Shown piece by piece: positions 47,743 through 60,153 of a stretch of DNA of 64,000 nucleotides. The translations under genes were made by a program, and so were the position numbers. Position 1 is the first letter of the stretch. Every line of letters starts with the position of its first letter. The DNA comes from Gimibacter soli. GTDB taxonomy: Bacteria; Pseudomonadota; Alphaproteobacteria; Sphingomonadales; Kordiimonadaceae. The stretch is from NCBI RefSeq assembly GCF_028463845.1, contig NZ_CP116805.1, forward strand, positions 1,488,001 to 1,552,000. The letters are read 5' to 3'. The notes beneath the pieces are model-generated. The model worked only from the letters and a program-made list of their open reading frames with translations. It was not told where the DNA came from and did not search any database.

Positions 47743-47892
47743 ATCCGCCGCCCTGCCAGTGAAAGGATCAGGGCTATCCTAGTGGCTGGAATTAAGGCGA
47801 GCTAGGGGATTGTTGGGGAAGCTCACGGTTGCATTTTTCGCTCGGGTGTTTCCTTATTCACTCCGTGTAATTGGACTTTTGGGAGGGCGCGT

Positions 47893-48225
47893 ATGCTTAA
47901 GATATCGGGCTGGCTAGTGTCTGCCATTTTGCTGGTGGGCTTGTTCTTGGATTGGGATCCATATTGCATCGACGAGCTAGCAGAAATCCAGATTCTGGAA
48001 AACAAGCAGAAGGAAGTCGTTATCAAGGCCACGGACGCAATTTTCTGGAAAAAGTCCTATGACCTCTTGTCTGAAAAATACCCAGAGGCGCTACAGAAGG
48101 ATTCGTATTTGGCTTGGAACGAAACTACCCGCACGATGTCAACATTCATTCCTATGTCGATGGGGGGAGTTGTAATTATTACGTTCGATGAAAGTGGCGA
48201 TGCGACAGTCGCTGCCTACAAGTAG
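47893..48225 (+). CDS. Hypothetical 110-residue protein
   Basis: N-terminal hydrophobic helix (about 5-20), possibly a signal anchor, followed by a charged region and a C-terminal beta-rich part (GGVVIITFDESGDATVAAY). GGGAGG lies upstream of the ATG. Base composition is lower in GC than surrounding core genes. I do not recognise a family. It is followed 23 bp later by another orphan gene and lies just outside the tRNA fragment that marks the island. Confidence 0.55.
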   Translation: MLKISGWLVSAILLVGLFLDWDPYCIDELAEIQILENKQKEVVIKATDAIFWKKSYDLLSEKYPEALQKDSYLAWNETTRTMSTFIPMSMGGVVIITFDESGDATVAAYK

Positions 48226-48248
48226 CTACCTGCTAAAGAGTGGCGCGG

Positions 48249-48779
48249 ATGAAAATCACCAAGCATGTTGTTGACGCAATTTCACTCGGTCAGAAGGCTT
48301 TTGACCTTGAGGTTGATCAATGGGTTCGTCCGCAAATGGTCAAGCTGTCTCGCCCGCTCGAAGAAATTCGTTCTTTGAACCGGGCATATCTTTTGGGCGA
48401 TGGGTTCGGAGGCGAGGAAACTGTCGATCAGGATATCGTCGATTACATGGCGGCCTACCTGAGGCGGACAAATGCCATCACTGACGAGGAATTCTGGATC
48501 GTTCTTGACGATATCGCTTGGGTTGCTGAGCAGATGCTTTCGTCCTATGCGCTTGAGCTTTTAGACTATGTCTTCTCCCGCCACGTGACCAAAGAACGGA
48601 TAGACCAGACGATGTTGCGACTGAAAGCCCTCTATTCGCAATCCTCGCCGCTACTGAACTCTTCGTGGCGCAATTTTATCCTTGATGCTTCGCATGTGAA
48701 TGAATGGAGCGATGAACAGGTTCGGGAAGTTTTGAGTGGAGAGGCGTATGGCTTCGTTAAAGAAATCAGAGCGGTCTGA
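48249..48779 (+). CDS. Hypothetical 176-residue protein
   Basis: A soluble, acidic, mainly helical protein (VVDAISLGQKAFDLEVDQWV at the start, EEFWIVLDDIAWVAEQML in the middle) with no motif I can name. GTG 48240 is in frame three codons earlier. It probably forms an operon with the preceding small gene. Both are AT-richer than neighbours and may be remnants of an earlier insertion next to the tRNA site. Confidence 0.55.
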   Translation: MKITKHVVDAISLGQKAFDLEVDQWVRPQMVKLSRPLEEIRSLNRAYLLGDGFGGEETVDQDIVDYMAAYLRRTNAITDEEFWIVLDDIAWVAEQMLSSYALELLDYVFSRHVTKERIDQTMLRLKALYSQSSPLLNSSWRNFILDASHVNEWSDEQVREVLSGEAYGFVKEIRAV

Positions 48780-48882
48780 AAAAACATGTCCCCAACTGCT
48801 TCCTTCGTGCTTCCGCGAAAACCACAAGCGGCAGCATGCCACAGTCGCAGCACATCCAACATTCTGATTTCAGGGATTTAAA

Positions 48883-48928
48883 TGGTGCCGGCTGCAGGGA
48901 TCGAACCCGCGACCTGATGATTACAAAG
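48883..48928 (-). mobile_element. tRNA-Thr(TGT) 3' fragment: attachment-site scar
   Basis: Read on the minus strand, this is the 3' part of a tRNA-Thr from the anticodon loop to CCA: TTTGTAATCATC, then AGGTC, the T-arm GCGGGTTCGATCCCTGC and acceptor strand AGCCGGC-ACCA. The bases before the anticodon loop (TTTTCTTC) do not pair with TCATC, and no D-arm is present, so it is not a functional tRNA. A displaced tRNA 3' end next to an integrase is the classic scar of site-specific integration, making this the left end of an island. Confidence 0.8.
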
Positions 48929-49089: not shown

Positions 49090-50250
49090 ATGAAGCTCAC
49101 CAAGGCGACCCTGAAGGCCATTGAGGCGACCGATAAGGACATCTTCCTTTGGGACGATACTCTGCAGGGCTTCGGCGTCCGGATCAAGCCGACGGGTGTA
49201 AAATCCTACCTCATTCAGTATCGCAACGAGAATGGCCAAAGCCGTCGTGCGACGGTCGGTCGGGACGGCGTCCTGACGCTCGATGAAGCTCGCAAGAAGG
49301 CCAAGGCGCTCCTCGGCCGTGTTGCGAACGGTGCGGACCCGCGAGAGGAGGTGGTCGAGAAGCGAAGCGCCGTCCGCTTCGATGATATGACCAAGCGCTT
49401 CCTGAAGGAGCATTGCGCGACCCGCTGCAAACCACACACCGTCCGCAATTATGAAACCATGATCGACCGCCATCTGGTACCGGCGTTCGGCACAAAGCCA
49501 CTCGCCTCGATCACCCGCGCGGATATCGCTGCTTTGCATACCTCGATGGCCGAAATCCCCCGGATGGCCAACCTGGCCCTCTCCGTCCTCTCCAGCATCT
49601 TCAATCGCGCCATCGAATGGGGTGTGCTGGATGAAGGGCAAAATCCGGTAAAGCGGGTCAAAGGCTATCCCGAGAAGCCGAAGCAGCGTTTCCTTGTGCA
49701 AGATGAGATCAAGCGCTTGGGTAAATCGATCCAGAAACTCGAAGAGGCGGAGGACATTTCGCCATACGTGGCCGCCGCATTTCGCCTGCTCGTGGCAACC
49801 GGCGCCCGTCACGACGAGATCCGAACCTTGAAGTGGGAAGATGTTCACCTCGACCGTGGCATCATCCTTCTCGATGAGCACAAGACGAGCAGCAAAGGCG
49901 CCAAGGTCATCCCACTCAACGCCACCAGCCGCCGCATTCTGGAGGGGCTGACCAAAGTGTCAGGCAATCCCTATGTGATCGTCGGTGTGCGGGCAGGGCA
50001 GCCCTATATCAATCTCCACAAAGCCTGGCGGCGCGTACGTGCGGACGCAAAGCTGGAGGATGTACGTATCCACGACCTGCGCCACACTTTTGCGAGCCAG
50101 GCGATTGCCGAAGGGGCATCATTGCCGGTGATCGGGGCACTGCTTGGGCATCGATCAGTGCAGTCGACAGCGGTTTATGCGCATCTTGCGGTTAATACAC
50201 TTAAGGACGCGACAGAGAAGGTGTCCGATCGGATTGGAGGGATGATTTAG
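49090..50250 (+). CDS. Tyrosine integrase (DUF4102/P4-like)
   Basis: 386-residue site-specific recombinase. The N-terminal arm-binding domain (1-85, WDDTLQGFGVRIKPTGVKSYLIQYR) is the DUF4102 type of P4-like integrases, then a SAM-like core-binding domain (100-185) and the catalytic domain (200-375) with Arg240 (ATGARHDEIR), Lys265, His328-Arg331 (HDLRH), His354 and nucleophile Tyr363. All catalytic residues are present, so it may be active. It points away from the tRNA fragment 160 bp upstream, its presumed target. Confidence 0.95.
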   Translation: MKLTKATLKAIEATDKDIFLWDDTLQGFGVRIKPTGVKSYLIQYRNENGQSRRATVGRDGVLTLDEARKKAKALLGRVANGADPREEVVEKRSAVRFDDMTKRFLKEHCATRCKPHTVRNYETMIDRHLVPAFGTKPLASITRADIAALHTSMAEIPRMANLALSVLSSIFNRAIEWGVLDEGQNPVKRVKGYPEKPKQRFLVQDEIKRLGKSIQKLEEAEDISPYVAAAFRLLVATGARHDEIRTLKWEDVHLDRGIILLDEHKTSSKGAKVIPLNATSRRILEGLTKVSGNPYVIVGVRAGQPYINLHKAWRRVRADAKLEDVRIHDLRHTFASQAIAEGASLPVIGALLGHRSVQSTAVYAHLAVNTLKDATEKVSDRIGGMI

Positions 50251-50473: not shown

Positions 50474-52222
50474 TTATTGCGCACTCTGCTTACGCCAGGA
50501 TTGAACTGCACGGTCAGTATCAGAAACTGGCTCGTTCTCATTCCACCGATCCCAGAATTCTACGGTAGCACTGTTCGGTTTGAATCTGGGTTCGTATACA
50601 CGCACCCGCGTGGGCAAGAGGCTTGCATCCCCCACAACAAGGGCTTCGCCTACATCGAGAACCGGCAATAAATCACCAAATCCGCCAAGGCTGTCGGGGA
50701 GTAGCCGCTTAATGACCGATTGGTCCTCTCCGTTGGTCAAGCGCATGGCGATAACGTTGTTGCACTGGCTCAGAACAGTCCGGTTAACCTCGGATGGGCG
50801 CTGGCTGATAACGGCCAATCCAACACCATATTTTCGGCCCTCTTTTGCAATACGTTCAAAAATCCCAACCGAAATCTCGTCGACTCCGTCCTTTTTACCT
50901 CGCTCAGGGATATACAGATGCGCCTCGTCACAGAACAAAGCGACCGGATGCCGCTTATCAACATCTGTCCATTGCATGACCGTGAAAATAAGGCGCGCCA
51001 GAAGGCTCACCATGAGCGGCAGGATGTCCGAGGGCACCTCAGAAAAATCGATTACTTTAATGCCACCCTTTCCATCCGTTTGCGATCCCCGCCCACCGAT
51101 CAGTTGGTGGGTCATCCTCGGGAGCCATGCCATTTCCATGCATTCAGCATGCGGTTGGAACAGGAAACCAAGCCGACGATCCAAACGCTTCGACTCAAAG
51201 CGGGCAATCAAGCGGCTGAGTTTCCCATTGAAATCCCCCGCCTTGTCGGTGCCAGCTTTAGCGCCTGGTACACGCTCAGTGTCAAGCCGATTCAGCTCCT
51301 CCACCACCTCATCGATACTGAATGGAACGGGACTATCAACGGTGAAATTCTCCAAGATTTCATGATGCCCACCAGCTGTAAGATAAGTGCGTTTGGCATC
51401 AGTGATACACCGGGACATGACCATTGCTTGATTGGGTGCATTTTGATCAGAGCGGTCCACGAACAGCGAAACCATCGCCTCATATCCGAGGAGCCAATAT
51501 GGCAGGTACAACACGCCCGTATCTAGGGCGTTGCCCCCATCAAGATCGCCCGGCCCAGCAATTCTGAAATGCCGGAACTCGTCTCCCTGAAGCGTTTTAT
51601 ACTCTCCGTGGACATCGAACAGGATGGCGTTCGCTTGTTTGAGTACAGCCACCTGATCCAACAATCTGGCTGTCGTCCATGATTTGCCTGAACCGGTACT
51701 GCCTACAACAACCGCATGGCGTTGAAACAGCCTGTTCCCATTGAGATAGGCGGTTGCATCCTCGTCCAAAGTGTATCTACCAAGTTCCAACTGTGGGCCA
51801 TCGCCCGTCACGTTGGAAATGACCTGCATAAAGTTGGTGAGGCGCTCGCCCTCCAAGGCAAAGCAATTTGCATCGATCTCGGGTACCGTCTCCAAAGTAC
51901 GGCGAAAAACATTCTGGGCTTGCCCCAGACGATCAATCAACGTCCCAATCAGCGACACCCTGACCAGATTGTTTTCCGGCAAGATAACGTCTTCAGATTC
52001 GTCCGTTGTCGGATCAACACCCCCGTCTGGTGCTTTTCTGGTAATCCGCGAGACAACTCCGATCAAATGCTGACCGGCCTTGCTACTTTGTAGGGCGACA
52101 AGACGGTTGACCTGTACACGCTTCAAGCGTTCCAGTTCATCAACCCTCACAACAACAACCGCGCTATCGACCGCGATGATTTTTCCAAGAGCGTCATTAT
52201 CCTGATAATCAAGAATCGTCAT
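50474..52222 (-). CDS. HerA-like ATPase of a SIR2-HerA defence system
   Basis: 582 residues. An N-terminal HAS-barrel-like region (1-130) is followed by a HerA/FtsK-type motor with Walker A GSTGSGKS (174-181), a conserved FDVHGEY strand (202-208), Walker B ALFCDEAHLY (Asp432, Glu433) and a sensor-like VISQRPSEVN. HerA motors form hexamers. Together with SIR2 they form an NAD-depleting anti-phage complex in described systems. ATG 52222 has GAGG six bases before; the SIR2 gene ends 8 bp upstream, so the two are co-translated. Confidence 0.9.
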   Translation of the reverse strand: MTILDYQDNDALGKIIAVDSAVVVVRVDELERLKRVQVNRLVALQSSKAGQHLIGVVSRITRKAPDGGVDPTTDESEDVILPENNLVRVSLIGTLIDRLGQAQNVFRRTLETVPEIDANCFALEGERLTNFMQVISNVTGDGPQLELGRYTLDEDATAYLNGNRLFQRHAVVVGSTGSGKSWTTARLLDQVAVLKQANAILFDVHGEYKTLQGDEFRHFRIAGPGDLDGGNALDTGVLYLPYWLLGYEAMVSLFVDRSDQNAPNQAMVMSRCITDAKRTYLTAGGHHEILENFTVDSPVPFSIDEVVEELNRLDTERVPGAKAGTDKAGDFNGKLSRLIARFESKRLDRRLGFLFQPHAECMEMAWLPRMTHQLIGGRGSQTDGKGGIKVIDFSEVPSDILPLMVSLLARLIFTVMQWTDVDKRHPVALFCDEAHLYIPERGKKDGVDEISVGIFERIAKEGRKYGVGLAVISQRPSEVNRTVLSQCNNVIAMRLTNGEDQSVIKRLLPDSLGGFGDLLPVLDVGEALVVGDASLLPTRVRVYEPRFKPNSATVEFWDRWNENEPVSDTDRAVQSWRKQSAQ

Positions 52223-52230
52223 GCCATGCC

Positions 52231-53262
52231 TCACAGAACCAGTTCGTTGAATTTTTCGAAAGACCATAGCGTGACATCGGGCAAGATCACGCCGTCCTTG
52301 AATGCGTGCGAATATGCCCTTGTTCCACCCTCGCACTCTTCCATGGCGAGATAGGAAGTACCCGCACTCTTCGCCAAGAATTCTTTCGCCTCATCCGTCA
52401 GCACTTTGGCAAGAATGACGATCGGGACATTCCTTTGGCGACACCGCTCGACAAGCTTGGGCTGAATGTGGGCATCACGAAAGCCATAACCAACACACAG
52501 AAAAGCTGAAGCCGCACCGAGCGCTTCGTCGGCACCTTGCAAGGCAGACCGGAAGGGTTCTTCGTGGGTGCGCTCATATTTGCTGACCCCCGGCGTCACA
52601 ATTACCGGACTAAACCCCTGCGGAATTTCACTAGACAGAGGCAACGACAAGACCCTGCCCTGAGGGTCTTGAAACCAATCCAGTGAGCCATGAACCTTCC
52701 ATATCCGAACCGTCCGCGCCGGAGCATTCCCGCGCCTGACCAGAATTTTGTCTGCGCCTTCCCTTTGACGGATAAAACCGGGAATAAACCCGGTATTATG
52801 CACCACCCCGGCCATGTCCGAGGCATATTCCGCAACCCGATCATAATTTGGTGTCACAATGTTCAAGGTGGGATTCGTGGACCTGAACAGGCCTTGTATC
52901 AATGCCGCAAGAGGAAGCGCTTCTTCCCCCGAGGCTGCCCGCCGCAATACTGACAAGTCATCGCTCGCGATGGCTTTCCATGTGAAATTGACAATTTTTT
53001 TGACCAAAGAGGCTGGGGCTGCCGTCTGCTGAAGGGCTTCCTCAAGCCCCATATCATTTGCGAGTGCTCCCCTGATCAGGGTCCATGCGTCAAGCTCTTT
53101 GTCGCCCTCAGGTGGCACGTGATCAAGCAGGTATTGGGCTAATGCCCCCATTCCACGGATTTGGTGAGAAACCGATGCCCCACTGCCAAGAACAATCACA
53201 GGAAAGTGCTGGAAACAATCTTGCGCAATTTTAGCCACCACATCCAAAGGTTCATTTGTCAC
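52231..53262 (-). CDS. SIR2-family NADase of a SIR2-HerA defence system
   Basis: 343 residues with the NAD-binding SIR2 landmarks: GSGAS (26-30), TPNYDRVAEYA (Asn139, Asp141) and catalytic His191 in KVHGSLDW. There are no zinc Cys as in deacetylase sirtuins, which fits the defence NADases. Upon phage attack such proteins drain NAD+ and stop cell growth, with HerA as partner and regulator. This function is from the described SIR2-HerA pairs and not shown here. The upstream 250-bp spacer is AT-rich and holds its promoter. Confidence 0.9.
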   Translation of the reverse strand: MTNEPLDVVAKIAQDCFQHFPVIVLGSGASVSHQIRGMGALAQYLLDHVPPEGDKELDAWTLIRGALANDMGLEEALQQTAAPASLVKKIVNFTWKAIASDDLSVLRRAASGEEALPLAALIQGLFRSTNPTLNIVTPNYDRVAEYASDMAGVVHNTGFIPGFIRQREGADKILVRRGNAPARTVRIWKVHGSLDWFQDPQGRVLSLPLSSEIPQGFSPVIVTPGVSKYERTHEEPFRSALQGADEALGAASAFLCVGYGFRDAHIQPKLVERCRQRNVPIVILAKVLTDEAKEFLAKSAGTSYLAMEECEGGTRAYSHAFKDGVILPDVTLWSFEKFNELVL

Positions 53263-53512
53263 AATAGATCATTCCCTTTACCCTGATGGTCTTCATGAGG
53301 ATCGGCCATTACCGTAAGATTGATTCAAATTTCTACTATTAAGCGTATTATGCAAATTATTGAGTGACCTAGCTACTCAGGTTTCCAGCAGCCAAGCCAA
53401 TCGAGAAATAAGCTGTCTGCATTACAGCCCTTTTCAAAGCTCCCAAATTAGGAACTTTAGCCCCCCATATTGATATCTTTTGATGCAGGACAGAATAGCT
53501 GAGCCGCCAATT

Positions 53513-54505
53513 TTAGGGCAAGATGTCCCAATCAATCTGACGATTCTCGATCAACGATTTAAGCTCAGGAGGGCTCATGACAGTTACATGCCGGCCCCAT
53601 CTGATTAAATGCCATGCCATCTCCTGTAGGCCTGCAGCCTTGAATTTAATCGTCAGTGATCCGTCGTCGTTCGCTTGGGCAGTCTGATCGGGATGGAAAA
53701 TATAGTCCCTCGCGGTTGAGGCCGCGTCGGGGTCAAACCGCCATTCAACATCATAAACTTGATCGAAGTAGACCCCGAAAGATTGGTGCGCATATTCCTG
53801 CAAACAAAAACCTTCGGGCACTTCAAACATTTCGTCGGTCAAAAGTACCTTCTCGATAGATGACAAAATGATCTTTCGGAGCTTTCCATCAGCTCTAACG
53901 GGATTGTGGGCTACCAAATAGTGGCGATGCCCATACAGGAAACCGTATGGGTGAACCCGTTCACATCGCTTGGTGCCATCACGCTTAGTATAATACAGCT
54001 CGCATACGCTGCTCCCTTTGATGGCCTCCCTTAATGTTGACACATGCTCGGTTGGTATCGCTCTGCGCGGCCCAGGCGAGGCAATCAATCCTTCTGCCTG
54101 CAATAATGACTCAAGATCAGGGCTAATCCGGTTCCTCTCATCAGGCTTCATCAATGCCTTGATCTTGCGAATTGATGAACGAACCAGTTTGGCGTCGTCC
54201 TCATAGCCCTTTAGGTCGATTTTTTGTGCGGCTGTTTCTAGGGCCATCAGCTCATCAATTGAAAACCCAATCAACTTGTCAAAGGTCCCATTGGGAATGC
54301 GGTACCTCTTCACGCCATTATCGCCTGTTTGGATGTCCAACTGCGGAAAATAATATTCCATGCTCCGCATAAGTCTTTGTGTGGTGCGGATATCTTCATC
54401 CATGTGATCAGCAATTTCTCGGGTTGTCATGCCTACATGCCGGAATTGCAAGGTCACGGCCAAATCCAACGTTCGCATCACTTTTTCAAACCTATCTGAA
54501 GTCAT
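53513..54505 (-). CDS. WYL-domain transcriptional regulator
   Basis: 330 residues: an N-terminal winged HTH (1-70, TTREIADHMDEDIRTTQRLMRSMEYYF), a WYL domain (about 145-225, CELYYTKRDGTKRCERVHPYGFLYGHRHYLVAHN, which has GHRHYLV at the WYL position) and a C-terminal WCX extension (AAGLQEMAWHLIRWGRHVTV). WYL regulators of this layout control many phage-defence loci, sensing ligands such as oligonucleotides or damaged DNA. It lies directly upstream of the SIR2-HerA pair on the same strand. ATG 54505 has GGAG eight bases before; a GTG at 54514 is weaker. Control of the SIR2-HerA genes is inference. Confidence 0.88.
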   Translation of the reverse strand: MTSDRFEKVMRTLDLAVTLQFRHVGMTTREIADHMDEDIRTTQRLMRSMEYYFPQLDIQTGDNGVKRYRIPNGTFDKLIGFSIDELMALETAAQKIDLKGYEDDAKLVRSSIRKIKALMKPDERNRISPDLESLLQAEGLIASPGPRRAIPTEHVSTLREAIKGSSVCELYYTKRDGTKRCERVHPYGFLYGHRHYLVAHNPVRADGKLRKIILSSIEKVLLTDEMFEVPEGFCLQEYAHQSFGVYFDQVYDVEWRFDPDAASTARDYIFHPDQTAQANDDGSLTIKFKAAGLQEMAWHLIRWGRHVTVMSPPELKSLIENRQIDWDILP

Positions 54506-54568
54506 GCTTACCACTCCAAAATAGACAACCTTGGCGAAAGTTTATACCCGCGTCCAATTTTGTCACCC

Positions 54569-54587
54569 CCCTGATTTAGATTCAGGG
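54569..54587. promoter_or_regulatory. Inverted repeat between divergent genes, candidate WYL operator
   Basis: CCCTGA-TTTAGAT-TCAGGG has perfect six-base arms and lies 64 bp upstream of the WYL gene start and 47 bp before the divergent small gene. The place suits an autoregulatory operator. Confidence 0.45.
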
Positions 54588-54633: not shown

Positions 54634-54807
54634 ATGGCTACTAACCCGCCAAAAGGTGATGGACGGCGCATCGGAGCAGTTCGCGGTCGATCACAGACCA
54701 AAACGACCAGTGGTCACTATGTTAAACGCGACACGTCGACAGGTCGCTTCATGGACGTAAAGACATCCAGCAAAGCGCCTTTCAAGGGCGTCAGGAAGGA
54801 AAAGTAG
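54634..54807 (+). CDS. 57-residue basic small protein
   Basis: A short gene with an excellent GGAGGAA ribosome site. The product (MATNPPKGDGRRIGAVRGRS..., ending FKGVRKEK) is strongly basic, with YVKRDTSTGRFMDVK in its middle. I recall short proteins with a RDxxTGRFM pattern in many bacterial and phage genomes without a known role. Its stop TAG shares a base with the GTG of the next gene, so translation is coupled. Confidence 0.75.
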   Translation: MATNPPKGDGRRIGAVRGRSQTKTTSGHYVKRDTSTGRFMDVKTSSKAPFKGVRKEK

Positions 54808-55166
54808 TGGCGAACCGCGTTGAACACGAAATTATCGGCGCTATTGCTGGCGGCACCGTCGCCGCATTGAATAATGATGCCAAGGACCAATATGCTGTAA
54901 ATTTTGCAGCAGGTGCATTCTTAGGCAAAGTTGCAGCGCGCCTGCCCGATCTGCTTGAGCCAGCTATTCACCCAAACCATCGAGGATTCTTCCATTCGTG
55001 GCTGTTTCTCTCTGTCTTGGGCGCAGGCATGGTTAAGCTTTGGGAATGGGAGCCCGAAGCAACCAATCAAAAGGTTTTGAAATGGGCACTGCTCGTCACG
55101 GGGGCTGCTTACGCATCGCATCTGCTGCGCGACTCCATCACTCCTAAAAGCCTACCCATAGTGTAG
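54807..55166 (+). CDS. YdjM-like (DUF457) small membrane protein
   Basis: 119 residues starting with GTG that overlaps the previous stop. The pattern RVEHEIIGAIAGG...HPNHRGFFHSWLF...YASHLLRDS with scattered conserved His/Asp resembles the YdjM/DUF457 family of putative membrane-bound metal-dependent hydrolases. Two or three hydrophobic helices are visible. Activity is not established for the family. Confidence 0.6.
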   Translation: MANRVEHEIIGAIAGGTVAALNNDAKDQYAVNFAAGAFLGKVAARLPDLLEPAIHPNHRGFFHSWLFLSVLGAGMVKLWEWEPEATNQKVLKWALLVTGAAYASHLLRDSITPKSLPIV

Positions 55167-55175
55167 GAGTGCACT

Positions 55176-55868
55176 ATGTCCCTACACACTGCGCGCTTAA
55201 GTAAGATCATAAAAATCGCCTACACCGACGAAAAGCTGGCTCGCCGGGATATCCATGCAGATGTCGCAGATCATATCCAGAAAGGTAAAGTCACTGACAA
55301 ATCCAGTGGGGGCGGCGGAGACTTTCATAGTGAGTTATGGGCGAGGTTCAAAGATTGTATTTTTGAACATGACGCCGAAGGTTTTGACCTGATTGTCACA
55401 GCACTGATCAAAGCAAACTCGCGACGCAAGCGTCTTTTCCCCCTACTAGCAGCAGGGCTAAAGTCATGGGGCCTGGAGAAGCGGCGCTGGATGAACGAAG
55501 AGATCAAGCGCATCAAAAGCCCCACAGGCACGGTTGATCTGAACAGTCCCGATTTGTCCTTTAAAGTGAATAACATTCTTGCGCTCGAAATTGTCGGGCA
55601 AAGCAATCGTTACATCTACCCTTATTTCAGCGCAGAACCGGCCCTGTCCGACGAAGCCGCTCGCGTGGCGCTATGGCAAATTCACAAGGCGCTGCCACAC
55701 GTCAAATTGGAGGAAGTCCGCATCTTGGACGTACTTCGCGGAAGAAGCTTTTCTGTGTCAGACGTGCCATTTTTGGGTGACGAACAATCACTGTTTGAAC
55801 ATCACGTGACCAACATCATGAAGCGCTGGCATGAGCGTTATGGACAACGGCATAGTGAAGGCGATTGA
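55176..55868 (+). CDS. Hypothetical 230-residue protein of the island cassette
   Basis: A soluble protein with a basic middle (KANSRRKRLFPLLAAGLKSWGLEKRRW) and a SSGGGGDFHSELW loop. I recognise no family. It sits 9 bp after the YdjM-like gene and directly before the HNH gene (a 3-bp gap), so all four plus-strand genes look like one operon. Base composition is lower than in the core genome. Confidence 0.6.
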   Translation: MSLHTARLSKIIKIAYTDEKLARRDIHADVADHIQKGKVTDKSSGGGGDFHSELWARFKDCIFEHDAEGFDLIVTALIKANSRRKRLFPLLAAGLKSWGLEKRRWMNEEIKRIKSPTGTVDLNSPDLSFKVNNILALEIVGQSNRYIYPYFSAEPALSDEAARVALWQIHKALPHVKLEEVRILDVLRGRSFSVSDVPFLGDEQSLFEHHVTNIMKRWHERYGQRHSEGD

Positions 55869-55871
55869 CCT

Positions 55872-56507
55872 TTGGGCAACCTCTATAGAGCTCAACAATG
55901 GTCTGATTTCAGAGAAGCTATTCTGGAAGCAGACGGCTACAGATGTAGCGATTGCGGCAGATCAGGTCCGGATGTCGTTTTACAAGTCCATCACAAAAAA
56001 TATCGAAGTGGGAAGCTACCTTGGGAATACCCCCAAGGCGCTTGCGAAGTTTTATGCAAGGGGTGCCATGCCAGGCATCATGGAATAATCCCGCCAAATC
56101 ATGGATGGGACTTCCTCTACGAAAATGACTTAGAGGACCTCGCAGGTAAATGTGACCTATGCAACACCGCACTTAGGTATGAATTCCATATTCATCACCC
56201 CAACTGGGAACCCATGGTTGTTGGAACTGTCTGCTGTGACAAATTGACAGCGACCACAGTGGCATCTGATTTCCGAAAGAAATTTATAAGAAAAGAGAAT
56301 TTTATCCGCTCTCGTAAGTGGAGGGCTCTTAATAACCAGTATTTTTTCAAAAAAGACGCCCTTTACATCGTTATTAGCGAGGGGCTGAATGGGCTAAAAA
56401 TATCAATCAATACGACCCAAGGAATAAAGACCTATTCCTCTATTGATGAGGCAAAGAGTGTCGTTTTTGAGTTAATTGAAAATGGTAGGGCCTTTGAGTT
56501 TATTTGA
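55872..56507 (+). CDS. HNH endonuclease-like protein
   Basis: 211 residues. Residues 1-70 form an HNH module: YRAQQWSDFREAILEADGYRCSDC, then VHHKKY (the His-His of the fold) and LCKGCHARHH with zinc Cys pairs. A second Cys pair CDLC and CC follow in the middle, and the last 60 residues are a different, AT-rich domain. The start is a TTG at 55872 with GAAGG about ten bases before; no ATG lies in a sensible place. HNH proteins in islands are often phage-restricting or homing nucleases, but this one's role is open. Confidence 0.7.
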   Translation: MGNLYRAQQWSDFREAILEADGYRCSDCGRSGPDVVLQVHHKKYRSGKLPWEYPQGACEVLCKGCHARHHGIIPPNHGWDFLYENDLEDLAGKCDLCNTALRYEFHIHHPNWEPMVVGTVCCDKLTATTVASDFRKKFIRKENFIRSRKWRALNNQYFFKKDALYIVISEGLNGLKISINTTQGIKTYSSIDEAKSVVFELIENGRAFEFI

Positions 56508-57722: not shown

Positions 57723-58277
57723 ATGACCGATACACGTGCCGGGGTCGCCTTGGCCCGGCGGCTTTTGAGCCCTTTGCCGCTTTTGCCGTTGAACCGATTT
57801 CTCGTTCACTTCTCCCGCCATTTGACACGCCGTCACCCGGCTGTCATCCGCCGTCTGGAGCCCGTTACCGGGAAGCGATTTCTTATCACCGCCACCGATC
57901 TCGGGCTTTCTTTCGTCATGGAAACCGGTCCAGGCTCGGTGTCGGTGACAGCGGTCCGCCGGGAACATGTTGCGGCGGATGTTCGTGTGCGGGGCTCCTT
58001 TATGGCGCTCCTTCATCTGTTGGAAGGGCAACTTGACGGTGACGCATTGTTTTTCTCGCGCGATATCAGCGTGGAGGGCGATACCGAGGCGCTTTTAACC
58101 CTCAGGAATGCACTCGACAGCGAGGATATTGACCTGCGCAGCGAGATTGTCACCTTGTTCGGGCCCTTCGCTGGCCTGGTCGACAGGCTCGCAACCGAGG
58201 CCGTCGGGACGTGGGCTAGGCTGCTGCACACAGGACACGCTTTTGGGCTGGCCCCGGGCGAGAGGGTTGGCCGATGA
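57723..58277 (+). CDS. ubiT: Anaerobic ubiquinone accessory protein UbiT (SCP2 domain)
   Basis: 184 residues with an SCP2 lipid-binding fold (about 45-140, LGLSFVMETGPGSVSVTAVRREHVAADVRVRGSFMALLHLLEG). UbiT binds ubiquinone intermediates for oxygen-independent synthesis with UbiU and UbiV. AAGGGAG precedes the ATG. Its TGA overlaps the ubiU start (ATGA), coupling translation. The upstream promoter has an FNR-type box, as expected for an anaerobic gene. Confidence 0.9.
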   Translation: MTDTRAGVALARRLLSPLPLLPLNRFLVHFSRHLTRRHPAVIRRLEPVTGKRFLITATDLGLSFVMETGPGSVSVTAVRREHVAADVRVRGSFMALLHLLEGQLDGDALFFSRDISVEGDTEALLTLRNALDSEDIDLRSEIVTLFGPFAGLVDRLATEAVGTWARLLHTGHAFGLAPGERVGR

Positions 58278-59257
58278 AAAAACTGGAACTCGTTTGCCCG
58301 GCCGGTACCCCGGCTGCCCTCAGGGCAGCGGTCGATGCAGGGGCTGATGCCGTTTACATGGGTTTTCGCGACGAAACCAACGCGCGCAACTTCCCTGGTC
58401 TCAATTTTTCACGCGAGGAACTCGCTGAGGGACTTGCCTACGCCCATGCCCGCGGCGCAATGGTCTTTCTGGCGGTCAATACCTATGCCCGCGCGGGCGA
58501 TGACGCGGCATGGCGGACGGCCATCCGGTCAGCAAGCGAGTTGAAGGTCGATGCTCTGATACTTGCGGATATAGGCCTCCTTGACTATGCGCGGGAAGCC
58601 TATCCCGATCTCAGGCTGCACCTTTCCGTCCAGGCATCAGCCTCGAATGCAGAGGCGATCAATTTCCATGCCCGGCGGTTCGGTGTGCAGCGTGTGGTGT
58701 TGCCGCGTGTGCTGACGGTTGCCGATATTGCCCGCCTGAACAAGGAGATAGAAATCGAAACCGAAGTTTTCGCCTTTGGGGGCATGTGCCCGATGGCGGA
58801 GGGGCGCTGCACGCTTTCTTCCTATGTCACTGGCAAGTCGCCCAATCGTAACGGGGTCTGTTCGCCGGCCAGCCATGTCGATTATGTCGATGAAGGGTCG
58901 AGCCTCGCGAGCCGGCTGGGCGGCTTCACGATCAACCGTTTCGGGGTGGGCGAGCAGGCGGGCTATCCGACGCTGTGCAAGGGGCGTTTCAGCGCTGGCG
59001 GCGAGGCGGGCTATCTGTTCGAGGAGCCGACGAGCCTCGATACCTCGGCGATCCTTCCAGAACTGACAGCAGCGGGCGTGACGGCGCTCAAGATCGAGGG
59101 GCGCCAGCGCAGCAAGGCCTACGTGAAACAGGTCGTTTCCGAATTCCGGCGCGCCATCGACGCTGCGGCCGAGGGCACCCGTGTATCGCTGGATATGAAA
59201 GGCCTGTCCGAAGGGCAGCAGAATACGACAGGAGCATATGCAAAGAAATGGATGTGA
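58274..59257 (+). CDS. ubiU: Oxygen-independent ubiquinone hydroxylase subunit UbiU
   Basis: 327 residues of the peptidase-U32 family. Four Cys at 172, 179, 196 and 235 have exactly the spacing of the 4Fe-4S ligands of E. coli UbiU (169, 176, 193, 232). With UbiV it hydroxylates the ubiquinone ring using prephenate in place of oxygen. The gene overlaps ubiT and ubiV at both ends. Confidence 0.95.
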   Translation: MKKLELVCPAGTPAALRAAVDAGADAVYMGFRDETNARNFPGLNFSREELAEGLAYAHARGAMVFLAVNTYARAGDDAAWRTAIRSASELKVDALILADIGLLDYAREAYPDLRLHLSVQASASNAEAINFHARRFGVQRVVLPRVLTVADIARLNKEIEIETEVFAFGGMCPMAEGRCTLSSYVTGKSPNRNGVCSPASHVDYVDEGSSLASRLGGFTINRFGVGEQAGYPTLCKGRFSAGGEAGYLFEEPTSLDTSAILPELTAAGVTALKIEGRQRSKAYVKQVVSEFRRAIDAAAEGTRVSLDMKGLSEGQQNTTGAYAKKWM

Positions 59258-60153
59258 CGAAACCGGACCTCTCCCTTGGGCCCCTTCTGTTCAACTGGCC
59301 GGCAGCCGAGGTGCGGGATTTCTATTGCCGTATCGCCGATGAAGCCGATGTCGATGTGGTGTATTTCGGCGAAGCCGTATGTGCCAAGCGCCGCCCATTC
59401 ATTGCGCCGCATTTTGAGGAGATCGTGACCCGCCTGCAGACGGGCGAAAAGCGGGTGATCCTGTCCAGCCTGCAACTTGCCATGGACCGCAAGGATATGG
59501 CGGCGGTGGCCGACATGGTGGCGATGGCCGACGATTTTCTGGTCGAGGCCAATGACATGGCCGCGTGCAGCCTGCTTGGTGGGCGGTCCTTTGCCATTGG
59601 GCCTACGGTGAATGTTTATAACGAAGCAACGCTTCGTTTCTTCGAGAAGGAGGGGGCGGTCCGCATCAGCCTGAATGCCGAACTGCCGGAGGCGAGCCTC
59701 CGGGCGCTGGCGACCGCCGCGACGGCGCGTCTTGAGGTGCAGGTCTTTGGGCGCATTCCGCTTGCCATTTCGGCGCGGTGTTTTCACGCCCGCGCGCACC
59801 GGCTGGCCAAAAGCGGCTGCCAGTATGTGTGTGAACAGGACAGGGACGGCCTGACGGTCAATACCCTCGATGACCAGTCGTTCCTTGCGATCAATGGCTT
59901 GCAGACACTGTCGCACCGCTATCTGAACCTGCTTGGCGAATTGCCGCTGCTTCAGGACATAGGCATTGGCGGTTTCCGGCTATCGCCGCACACGGCGGAT
60001 ATGGTGAAAGTTGCCGATCTTTATCGCGCCCGTCTGAATGGCCGGGTCAGTGGCGAGGAAGCGAACGCCCGATTGGCCTGCCTGCTGCCGGCGGCCTCTT
60101 TCGCCAACGGATTTTTCCATGATGCGGCGGGACTTGCTGACATTCCGGCCTGA
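59248..60153 (+). CDS. ubiV: Oxygen-independent ubiquinone hydroxylase subunit UbiV
   Basis: 301 residues of the U32 family, partner of UbiU. The cluster ligands are Cys45 (EAVCAKRR), Cys178 (SARCFHARAH), Cys191 and Cys195 (GCQYVCEQ); the spacing of the last three equals that of E. coli UbiV (180, 193, 197). ATG 59248 lies inside the end of ubiU (10-bp overlap). The product permits ubiquinone synthesis under anaerobic, for example nitrate-respiring, growth. Confidence 0.93.
   Translation: MDVTKPDLSLGPLLFNWPAAEVRDFYCRIADEADVDVVYFGEAVCAKRRPFIAPHFEEIVTRLQTGEKRVILSSLQLAMDRKDMAAVADMVAMADDFLVEANDMAACSLLGGRSFAIGPTVNVYNEATLRFFEKEGAVRISLNAELPEASLRALATAATARLEVQVFGRIPLAISARCFHARAHRLAKSGCQYVCEQDRDGLTVNTLDDQSFLAINGLQTLSHRYLNLLGELPLLQDIGIGGFRLSPHTADMVKVADLYRARLNGRVSGEEANARLACLLPAASFANGFFHDAAGLADIPA

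Follow-up and report, generated by a model that had tools for sequence, protein, structure and literature searches.

Does a WYL-domain regulator that stands directly ahead of a SIR2-HerA gene pair control this pair, or does it serve other genes? The question is raised by a 64,000-nucleotide stretch of the Gimibacter soli genome (contig NZ_CP116805.1, positions 1,488,001 to 1,552,000; referred to as the window, whose own numbering is used unless stated otherwise), for which the initial annotation had described a SIR2 NADase and a HerA motor on an integrase island and had proposed the WYL gene upstream of them as their switch. Based on homology, the binding site, its geometry and linkage statistics a different answer is reached: the regulator is probably a DriD-type activator of a divergent operon of candidate defence genes, located beside a SIR2-HerA cassette that is independent of it. 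The divergent genes (54634-56507, plus strand), which lie beyond the WYL gene, had been missed by the initial annotation. The regulator, its predicted site and these genes are as follows (aa, amino acids).

53513-54505, minus strand: HTH-WYL-WCX regulator, DriD-type; ATG start, 330 aa; Pfam WYL and WCX.
54546-54570, no strand assigned: predicted WYL operator with a GAC-N7-GAC core, centre 54558; best matrix match in the 64 kb.
54577-54582, plus strand: predicted -10 element TAGATT facing PDC-S38, starting 19 nt from the operator centre.
54634-54807 (stop included), plus strand: PDC-S38-like small protein, 57 aa; PADLOC candidate PDC-S38, E 4e-30.
54807-55166, plus strand: YdjM-like membrane protein, 119 aa; Pfam YdjM, E 3.5e-11.
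55176-55868, plus strand: ORF230, no family match.
55872-56507, plus strand: HNH endonuclease-like protein, 211 aa; PHROG HNH, E 1.5e-11, and a weak ZorE match in PADLOC, E 1.1e-4.

Among solved proteins, the closest relatives of the regulator were identified to be the DriD chains 8tp8/9pfq (phmmer E of about 3e-45, residues 8-322). DriD of Caulobacter is an activator responsive to single-stranded DNA (ssDNA). Its binding site, ATACGAC-N7-GTCGTAT, covers the -35 region, and the operon that it switches on is divergent to the driD gene, which it does not activate (PMC12340889). The likeness to DriD of Caulobacter crescentus comprises the HTH-WYL-WCX build over most of the length, the GAC-N7-GTC geometry of the site, a -10 element at the same offset and a divergent target operon, whereas the window protein differs in being without two WYL-domain arginines, in a right half-site that reads GAC and in having relatives whose neighbour genes, as read here, change from locus to locus and are in many cases of a defence type. 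Within the HTH, R43 was found to be nearly invariant and R47 invariant among 16 aligned WYL proteins, both residues presumably being located in the recognition helix, and R213 is kept in the window protein. DNA recognition by the regulator looks DriD-like, and its trigger may differ from that of DriD. The article on RptR deals with another regulator.

Relatives of the regulator were detected in 7 of 98 related genomes (E <= 1e-20) and in 24 of 385 genomes of the class (E <= 1e-40), its own genome being counted each time, and also in 48 plasmid records. The 29 WYL loci analysed comprise the window, 20 genome regions from 19 genomes, 7 of the 48 plasmid records and L127, with the WYL gene starts in most of them taken from tblastn or from the ends of open reading frames (ORFs); L040 is absent from the initial scan for the core and is included in the later core, matrix and -10 counts. 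Eighteen of the 29 WYL genes (window included) have the core G(A/T)C-N7-G(A/T)C within 120 bp upstream, where dinucleotide shuffles yield 2.7 (standard deviation 1.6, maximum 7, 200 rounds) and random stretches of the same loci 2.9 (maximum 9). A 25-bp matrix built from the sites of 17 relatives, with the window excluded, placed the window operator first with a score of 20.5 (next 14.2, inside the integrase gene) and, in its one-strand form, of 21.1 (next 12.5). This operator lies between the WYL gene and the divergent genes. In the 250-bp gap between WYL and SIR2 no operator was found, the best score there being 0.69 (0.24 symmetrised). The matrix scan covered the 64-kb window, and the whole-genome count given further below used the short form of the motif.

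Across the 28 relatives' loci, to which the counts of 41 sites and 82 readings refer and in which the window is not counted, 41 sites scoring at least 14 occur in 317 kb, 4 of the 28 loci holding none. Eight sets of surrogates, generated as first-order Markov sequences composition-matched to the same 28 loci, contained 0-5 such sites (mean 2.75), and the 80 genome_contigs loci of SIR2-HerA that served as a further control hold 8 in 923 kb. The sites are not confined to the regulator: 24 of the 41 lie elsewhere than at WYL, 16 of these 24 within 250 bp of an ORF start, several being 48-57 nt ahead of the ORF, and at the ankyrin/exonuclease genes of L174 the sites stand 54-56 nt before the starts. 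Some of the WYL loci without an upstream core have a strong site ahead of another gene. A second candidate operator, the palindrome CCCTGA-N7-TCAGGG at 54569, is perfect in the window; it was rejected, as none was seen by eye upstream of related WYL genes and as the 39 occurrences found with up to 3 mismatches are near the 31.7 expected by chance.

The direction in which the site would act is indicated by a second element. TA begins at +19 from the site centre in 24 of the 82 directed readings, which corresponds to 22 of the 41 sites and 16 of the 24 loci with a site, while the other offsets from +9 to +44 gave 0-6 readings each and +8, which lies within the matrix, gave 9; in the control SIR2-HerA loci TA at +19 was seen in 0 of 14 readings. 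The nominal binomial P of 4e-17 has to be read with the related loci in mind, the sites from which are not independent. In the window, TA at +19 is found on the PDC-S38 side only. Two DriD promoters are printed in PMC12340889, and toward the DriD-activated gene both read CA at +19/+20, which is taken as the -12/-11 place.

The divergent arrangement recurs in the genome G017, where the WYL gene is divergent to PDC-S38 (84% identical) and YdjM, TA at +19 is also found on the PDC-S38 side, and Gabija lies on the other side of the regulator. Gabija there occupies the place of SIR2-HerA by WYL-PDC-S38 (GajA E 2e-273, GajB E 6e-249); its enzymes differ from those of SIR2-HerA, and in G017 it is convergent with the WYL gene. 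In the 27 WYL regions read (20 genome, 7 plasmid; up to 13 kb each) the neighbours of the regulator include TM0106/MkoA-like nuclease-helicase, SbcCD-like genes, ADP-ribosylglycohydrolase, HEPN proteins and Gabija, and no SIR2-HerA of the window type was found in them. In L041-L044, L046 and L188 the DriD-type WYL gene and the gene of a TM0106-like nuclease-helicase (about 1100 aa) point away from each other, with the operator between them; the L041 nuclease-helicase matches MkoA (E 5e-47), and L041 has a second strong operator site ahead of a multiubiquitin-ThiF gene set. In L174 (L174:3263-10519) a RhuM/Fic-like gene and two ankyrin-exonuclease genes surround the DriD-type WYL.

Within the divergent gene set, gaps of less than 10 bp separate the consecutive PDC-S38, YdjM, ORF230 and HNH genes, which probably form an operon. 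A WYL neighbour was identified at 8 of 31 PDC-S38 loci (window included; two of the eight near-identical), these WYL proteins belonging to two lineages between which comparisons with the window protein showed no significant similarity. The other lineage is CapW-like; plasmids of Burkholderia, Alteromonas and Yersinia carry it facing PDC-S38. PDC-S38 also occurs beside SAVED and nucleotidyltransferase genes, a CBASS-like setting, on plasmids of Vibrio gigantis and Burkholderia, and a relative of ORF230, itself without a family in Pfam, PADLOC, NCBIfam or PHROGs, directly follows a TIR gene on an Agrobacterium vitis plasmid; the four genes are candidates for a role in defence. A WYL exclusive to PDC-S38 was rejected, as PDC-S38 is frequently found without any detected WYL. 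PDC-S38, at 57 aa, is about 58-81% identical to the listed relatives from Vibrio, Klebsiella, Hymenobacter and a Streptococcus prophage, a conservation that is unusual for a small mobile gene. In the two plasmids read, ORF230 relatives lie beside the TIR gene or near a recombinase.

Several observations weigh against the activator reading. The 17 training sites of the matrix were chosen by eye; 11 of the 29 WYL genes are without the core within 120 bp upstream; in a leave-one-out scan the top site of the locus lay at most 150 bp upstream of WYL in 13 of the 29 loci; and L179, L180, L187 and L189, which lack the upstream core, hold no site of at least 14. In the window the right half-site is GAC instead of GTC, and the short motif form is not unique in the whole genome, where it has 6 exact matches and 117 when one mismatch is allowed (the reversed pattern gives 48). 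TA at one given place is expected by chance in roughly 3% of readings, and in G017 some 300 nt separate the site from PDC-S38. At 23 of the 31 PDC-S38 loci, the flanks of which are short, a WYL was not detected, and one PDC-S38 locus adjoins arsenic genes. Concerning the ligand, PafBC needs two arginines (R211/R214) for ssDNA (PMC11804915), and this dyad is absent in the window protein, where I216 and S219, by alignment and spacing the probable equivalents, are found instead; the ligand of DriD can therefore not be assumed.

The gene pair to which the regulator had been assigned lies on the same strand behind it.

53263-53512, minus strand: WYL-SIR2 gap, 250 bp; no WYL-family operator and no terminator-like site on the minus strand.
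52231-53262, minus strand: SIR2-like NADase gene; GTG start, 343 aa; Pfam SIR2_2, PADLOC SIR2 E 4e-128.
50474-52222, minus strand: HerA ATPase gene; ATG start 52222, 582 aa; Pfam DUF87/HerA_C, PADLOC HerA E 1.6e-243.

The position of the WYL gene 250 bp upstream and on the same strand (53513-54505) was borne out; the switch function was not. The 104 related SIR2 loci came from genome_contigs (the best 80 of 250 relatives), viruses (7), plasmid records (12 of 44) and genome regions (5). Duplicates are among them (L020 and L047 are the same contig, and several plasmids are near-identical), and their flanks mostly reach up to about 6 kb, many being ended by contig edges. In 103 of the 104, no more than 200 bp separate HerA from SIR2, which agrees with the description of the two as a defence pair. 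The conserved linkage that a switch would call for was looked for as the initial annotation had suggested, and a WYL of the window family was found in 1 of the 104 loci (L127), there about 2.7 kb downstream of HerA, beyond an AAA gene, and not upstream. In the 12 plasmids read the gene preceding SIR2 varies and includes a restriction endonuclease, a RapA-like helicase, a DUF6088 protein, a metallophosphoesterase and an AAA ATPase that follows an SbcD-like gene. As the family is linked to the pair in 1 of 104 loci and the operator is absent before SIR2, the WYL is, on sequence grounds, not a dedicated SIR2-HerA switch: its site faces the divergent genes, and G017 has Gabija in place of the pair.

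A looser dependence, in which WYL, SIR2 and HerA form one operon with WYL controlling itself via the site and SIR2-HerA being reached by read-through over the 250 bp, is considered unlikely, yet it retains part of the earlier proposal. The three genes follow one another on one strand, a search of the minus strand of the gap gave no terminator-like site (RNA fold z -1.5), so that transcription may read through into SIR2-HerA, and the site centre lies 53 nt before the WYL ATG, a distance as seen before several neighbouring ORFs in related loci. A CapW-like WYL, of the other family, stands upstream of SIR2-HerA in 3 of the 104 loci (L030, L085, L089), the match in L030 being by construction, as the profile was made from four proteins including that of L030; and a window-family WYL on the R. 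etli plasmid L041 is followed, about 3.5 kb downstream, by a SIR2 from a different subfamily with an ATP-binding protein. Against the single operon stand the absence of TA at +19 in the WYL direction, where a TATAAA begins at +12, the length of the gap, the fact that no other locus was seen with a window-family WYL upstream of this SIR2-HerA type, and DriD itself, which is not self-regulating (PMC12340889).

Slightly less probable still is a role of the WYL as a BrxR/CapW-like repressor, acting on the divergent operon and perhaps on its own gene. BrxR represses a defence promoter, and its homologues adjoin many defence systems (PMC9122601); WYL regulators of ADP-ribosylglycohydrolase systems are predicted repressors (PMC9503650), and such a gene follows the WYL in L045. 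In the window, the site overlaps the space ahead of the TATAAA on the WYL side, and the likeness to BrxR/CapW consists in a WYL regulator that adjoins defence genes, in some loci next to the same PDC-S38 gene. The comparison of proteins and sites speaks for an activator instead: the window protein has no significant similarity (E 0.38 or worse) to three CapW-like WYL proteins, which we take to be relatives of CapW and BrxR (the set compared did not contain these two themselves), its nearest solved relative DriD is an activator, and the fixed -10 spacing fits an activator at -35. The WYL of G017 matches one of the three CapW-like proteins with E 0.005. BrxR sites differ also in form, being 11-bp repeats with a 5-bp spacer (PMC9122601). 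That the WYL is a mere passenger of the island which regulates nothing here, as its arrangement with SIR2-HerA, seen nowhere else, and the loss of the putative ligand dyad could imply, is very improbable given an intact ORF, intact HTH arginines and the top-scoring cognate site adjoining.

The DriD-type activator beside an independent SIR2-HerA cassette is therefore preferred, and two defence modules would lie at one end of an approximately 58-kb tRNA-Thr island. The first would be self-contained: by analogy with published systems, HerA would assemble SIR2 into a complex and NAD+ would be destroyed upon infection. The second would comprise the DriD-type WYL and the divergent PDC-S38, YdjM, ORF230 and HNH genes. 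Here, by analogy with DriD, a WYL dimer would bind a nucleic-acid or other ligand, occupy the GAC-N7-GAC site over the -35 region and recruit RNA polymerase to the -10 element TAGATT facing PDC-S38.

The SIR2-HerA pair itself was confirmed as co-directional and equipped with its catalytic motifs, the two genes being separated by an 8-bp gap. The best HerA start is the ATG at 52222, where the PADLOC HerA model begins; an alternative start listed at 52336 would overlap SIR2. In SIR2, N139 and H191 are invariant across 13 aligned sequences (window protein included) and align with Asn and His in two proteins of solved structure, 8yhx and 8w9l, and there is no CxxC pair, Cys being found only at 16, 256, 274 and 310; His191 and the missing zinc cysteines had been recognized correctly. 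In HerA both Walker motifs are intact (GSTGSGKS at 174, LFCDEAH at 429). In the Vibrio cholerae SIR2-HerA system (Nezha), mutation of the active-site Asn or His abolished immunity (PMC11559045), these probably being the same two residues as N139 and H191. Shared with Nezha are the adjacent genes, the SIR2 catalytic Asn/His, the HerA ATPase motifs and the location on mobile islands or plasmids, while the window SIR2 is short (343 aa) and far under the NCBIfam SIR2_antiphage cut-off (23.2 versus 500 bits). HerA likewise misses the cut-offs of HerA_antiphage (159.9 versus 800 bits) and of HerA_antiphage_2 (290.9 versus 850 bits), scoring higher with the latter, and the pair falls outside the named NCBIfam equivalogs SIR2_antiphage/HerA_antiphage. 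Among solved proteins, HerA is nearer to 9c1m, 8ziq and 8xau (E 1.8e-65) than to 8wiv or 8yho, the entries of which include SIR2 chains; 8xau is the HerA of a DUF4297-HerA complex (PMC11291478). As it scores below the NCBIfam cut-offs and its HerA is nearer to the former group, the pair is, as far as sequence comparison tells, a divergent but ordinary member of the known SIR2-HerA defence kind.

Further observations concern its relatives. The nearest SIR2-HerA relative (L020/L047, 70%/87% identity) has type I-E CRISPR cas3/cse1-like neighbours, as judged by eye. In L021:9425-12438 (G049) the HerA match is broken by about 1.25 kb in an insertion-like manner. The pairs of L028, L029, L055-L061 and L064 come from several genera of Rhodobacterales and yet seem almost identical: one HerA accession is common to L028 and L029, and the rest of the group have the same or near-same identity to the window proteins, which suggests a recent transfer. 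The Gimibacter soli genome holds a second SIR2 of another subfamily with a HerA-like gene adjoining (L011, G000:C1:2147436-2148068). Single-protein scans of SIR2 against viral_contigs and genome_contigs and of WYL against viral_contigs were uninformative.

The island that carries both modules begins within the window.

48875-48927, minus strand: attachment repeat, the 3' part of tRNA-Thr(TGT), at the left island end; 53 bp identical to the intact-tRNA region.
49090-50250, plus strand: tyrosine integrase of the island; Pfam Phage_integrase E 1.3e-25.

The initial annotation had assigned the pair to a tRNA-Thr island, and this stands with a correction: ARAGORN detected no tRNA-Thr within the window, which has only the 3' fragment, and the intact tRNA-Thr(TGT) lies at genome positions 1594912-1594987, 58 kb rightward and beyond the window. 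The island of about 58 kb has 53-bp direct repeats at its ends. In the one congener searched (G001), the left flank matches to 582699 and the tRNA side from 583905; since left flank and tRNA are just 1.2 kb apart there, the island is, by this comparison, an insertion in the present genome. For 47822-48874, about 1 kb left of the repeat, no match was found in G001. The G+C content ranges from 0.49 to 0.57 between 49 and 59 kb and from 0.51 to 0.56 at the right end of the island; it is about 0.6 mid-island and 0.58-0.68 in the window left of 47 kb. Genes at 57723-60153, inside the island, look like ubiT/ubiU/ubiV and lie in sequence of normal G+C, and the island may therefore be a mosaic. An Rfam search at gathering scores gave nothing useful.

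A literature search in one library, with articles available in part, found no account in which a WYL protein controls SIR2-HerA and none that describes DriD-type activators as a family present in defence islands. The locus cautions that adjacency alone does not make a regulator the switch of a defence pair. What the WYL gene points to, a probable family of DriD-type activators that share a promoter grammar around exchangeable defence genes, is of more interest than an ordinary SIR2-HerA pair. It is tentatively suggested that DriD-type WYL proteins are a plug-in activator family for interchangeable defence cassettes, the targets of which are marked by the promoter grammar and include, in the present genome, an undescribed PDC-S38/YdjM/ORF230/HNH defence operon. 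If the grammar G(A/T)C-N7-G(A/T)C with a -10 element at +19 holds true, targets around defence islands would be readable from DNA, it would show which neighbours a WYL regulator controls and which not, and a DNA-damage-like trigger for such genes would become testable.

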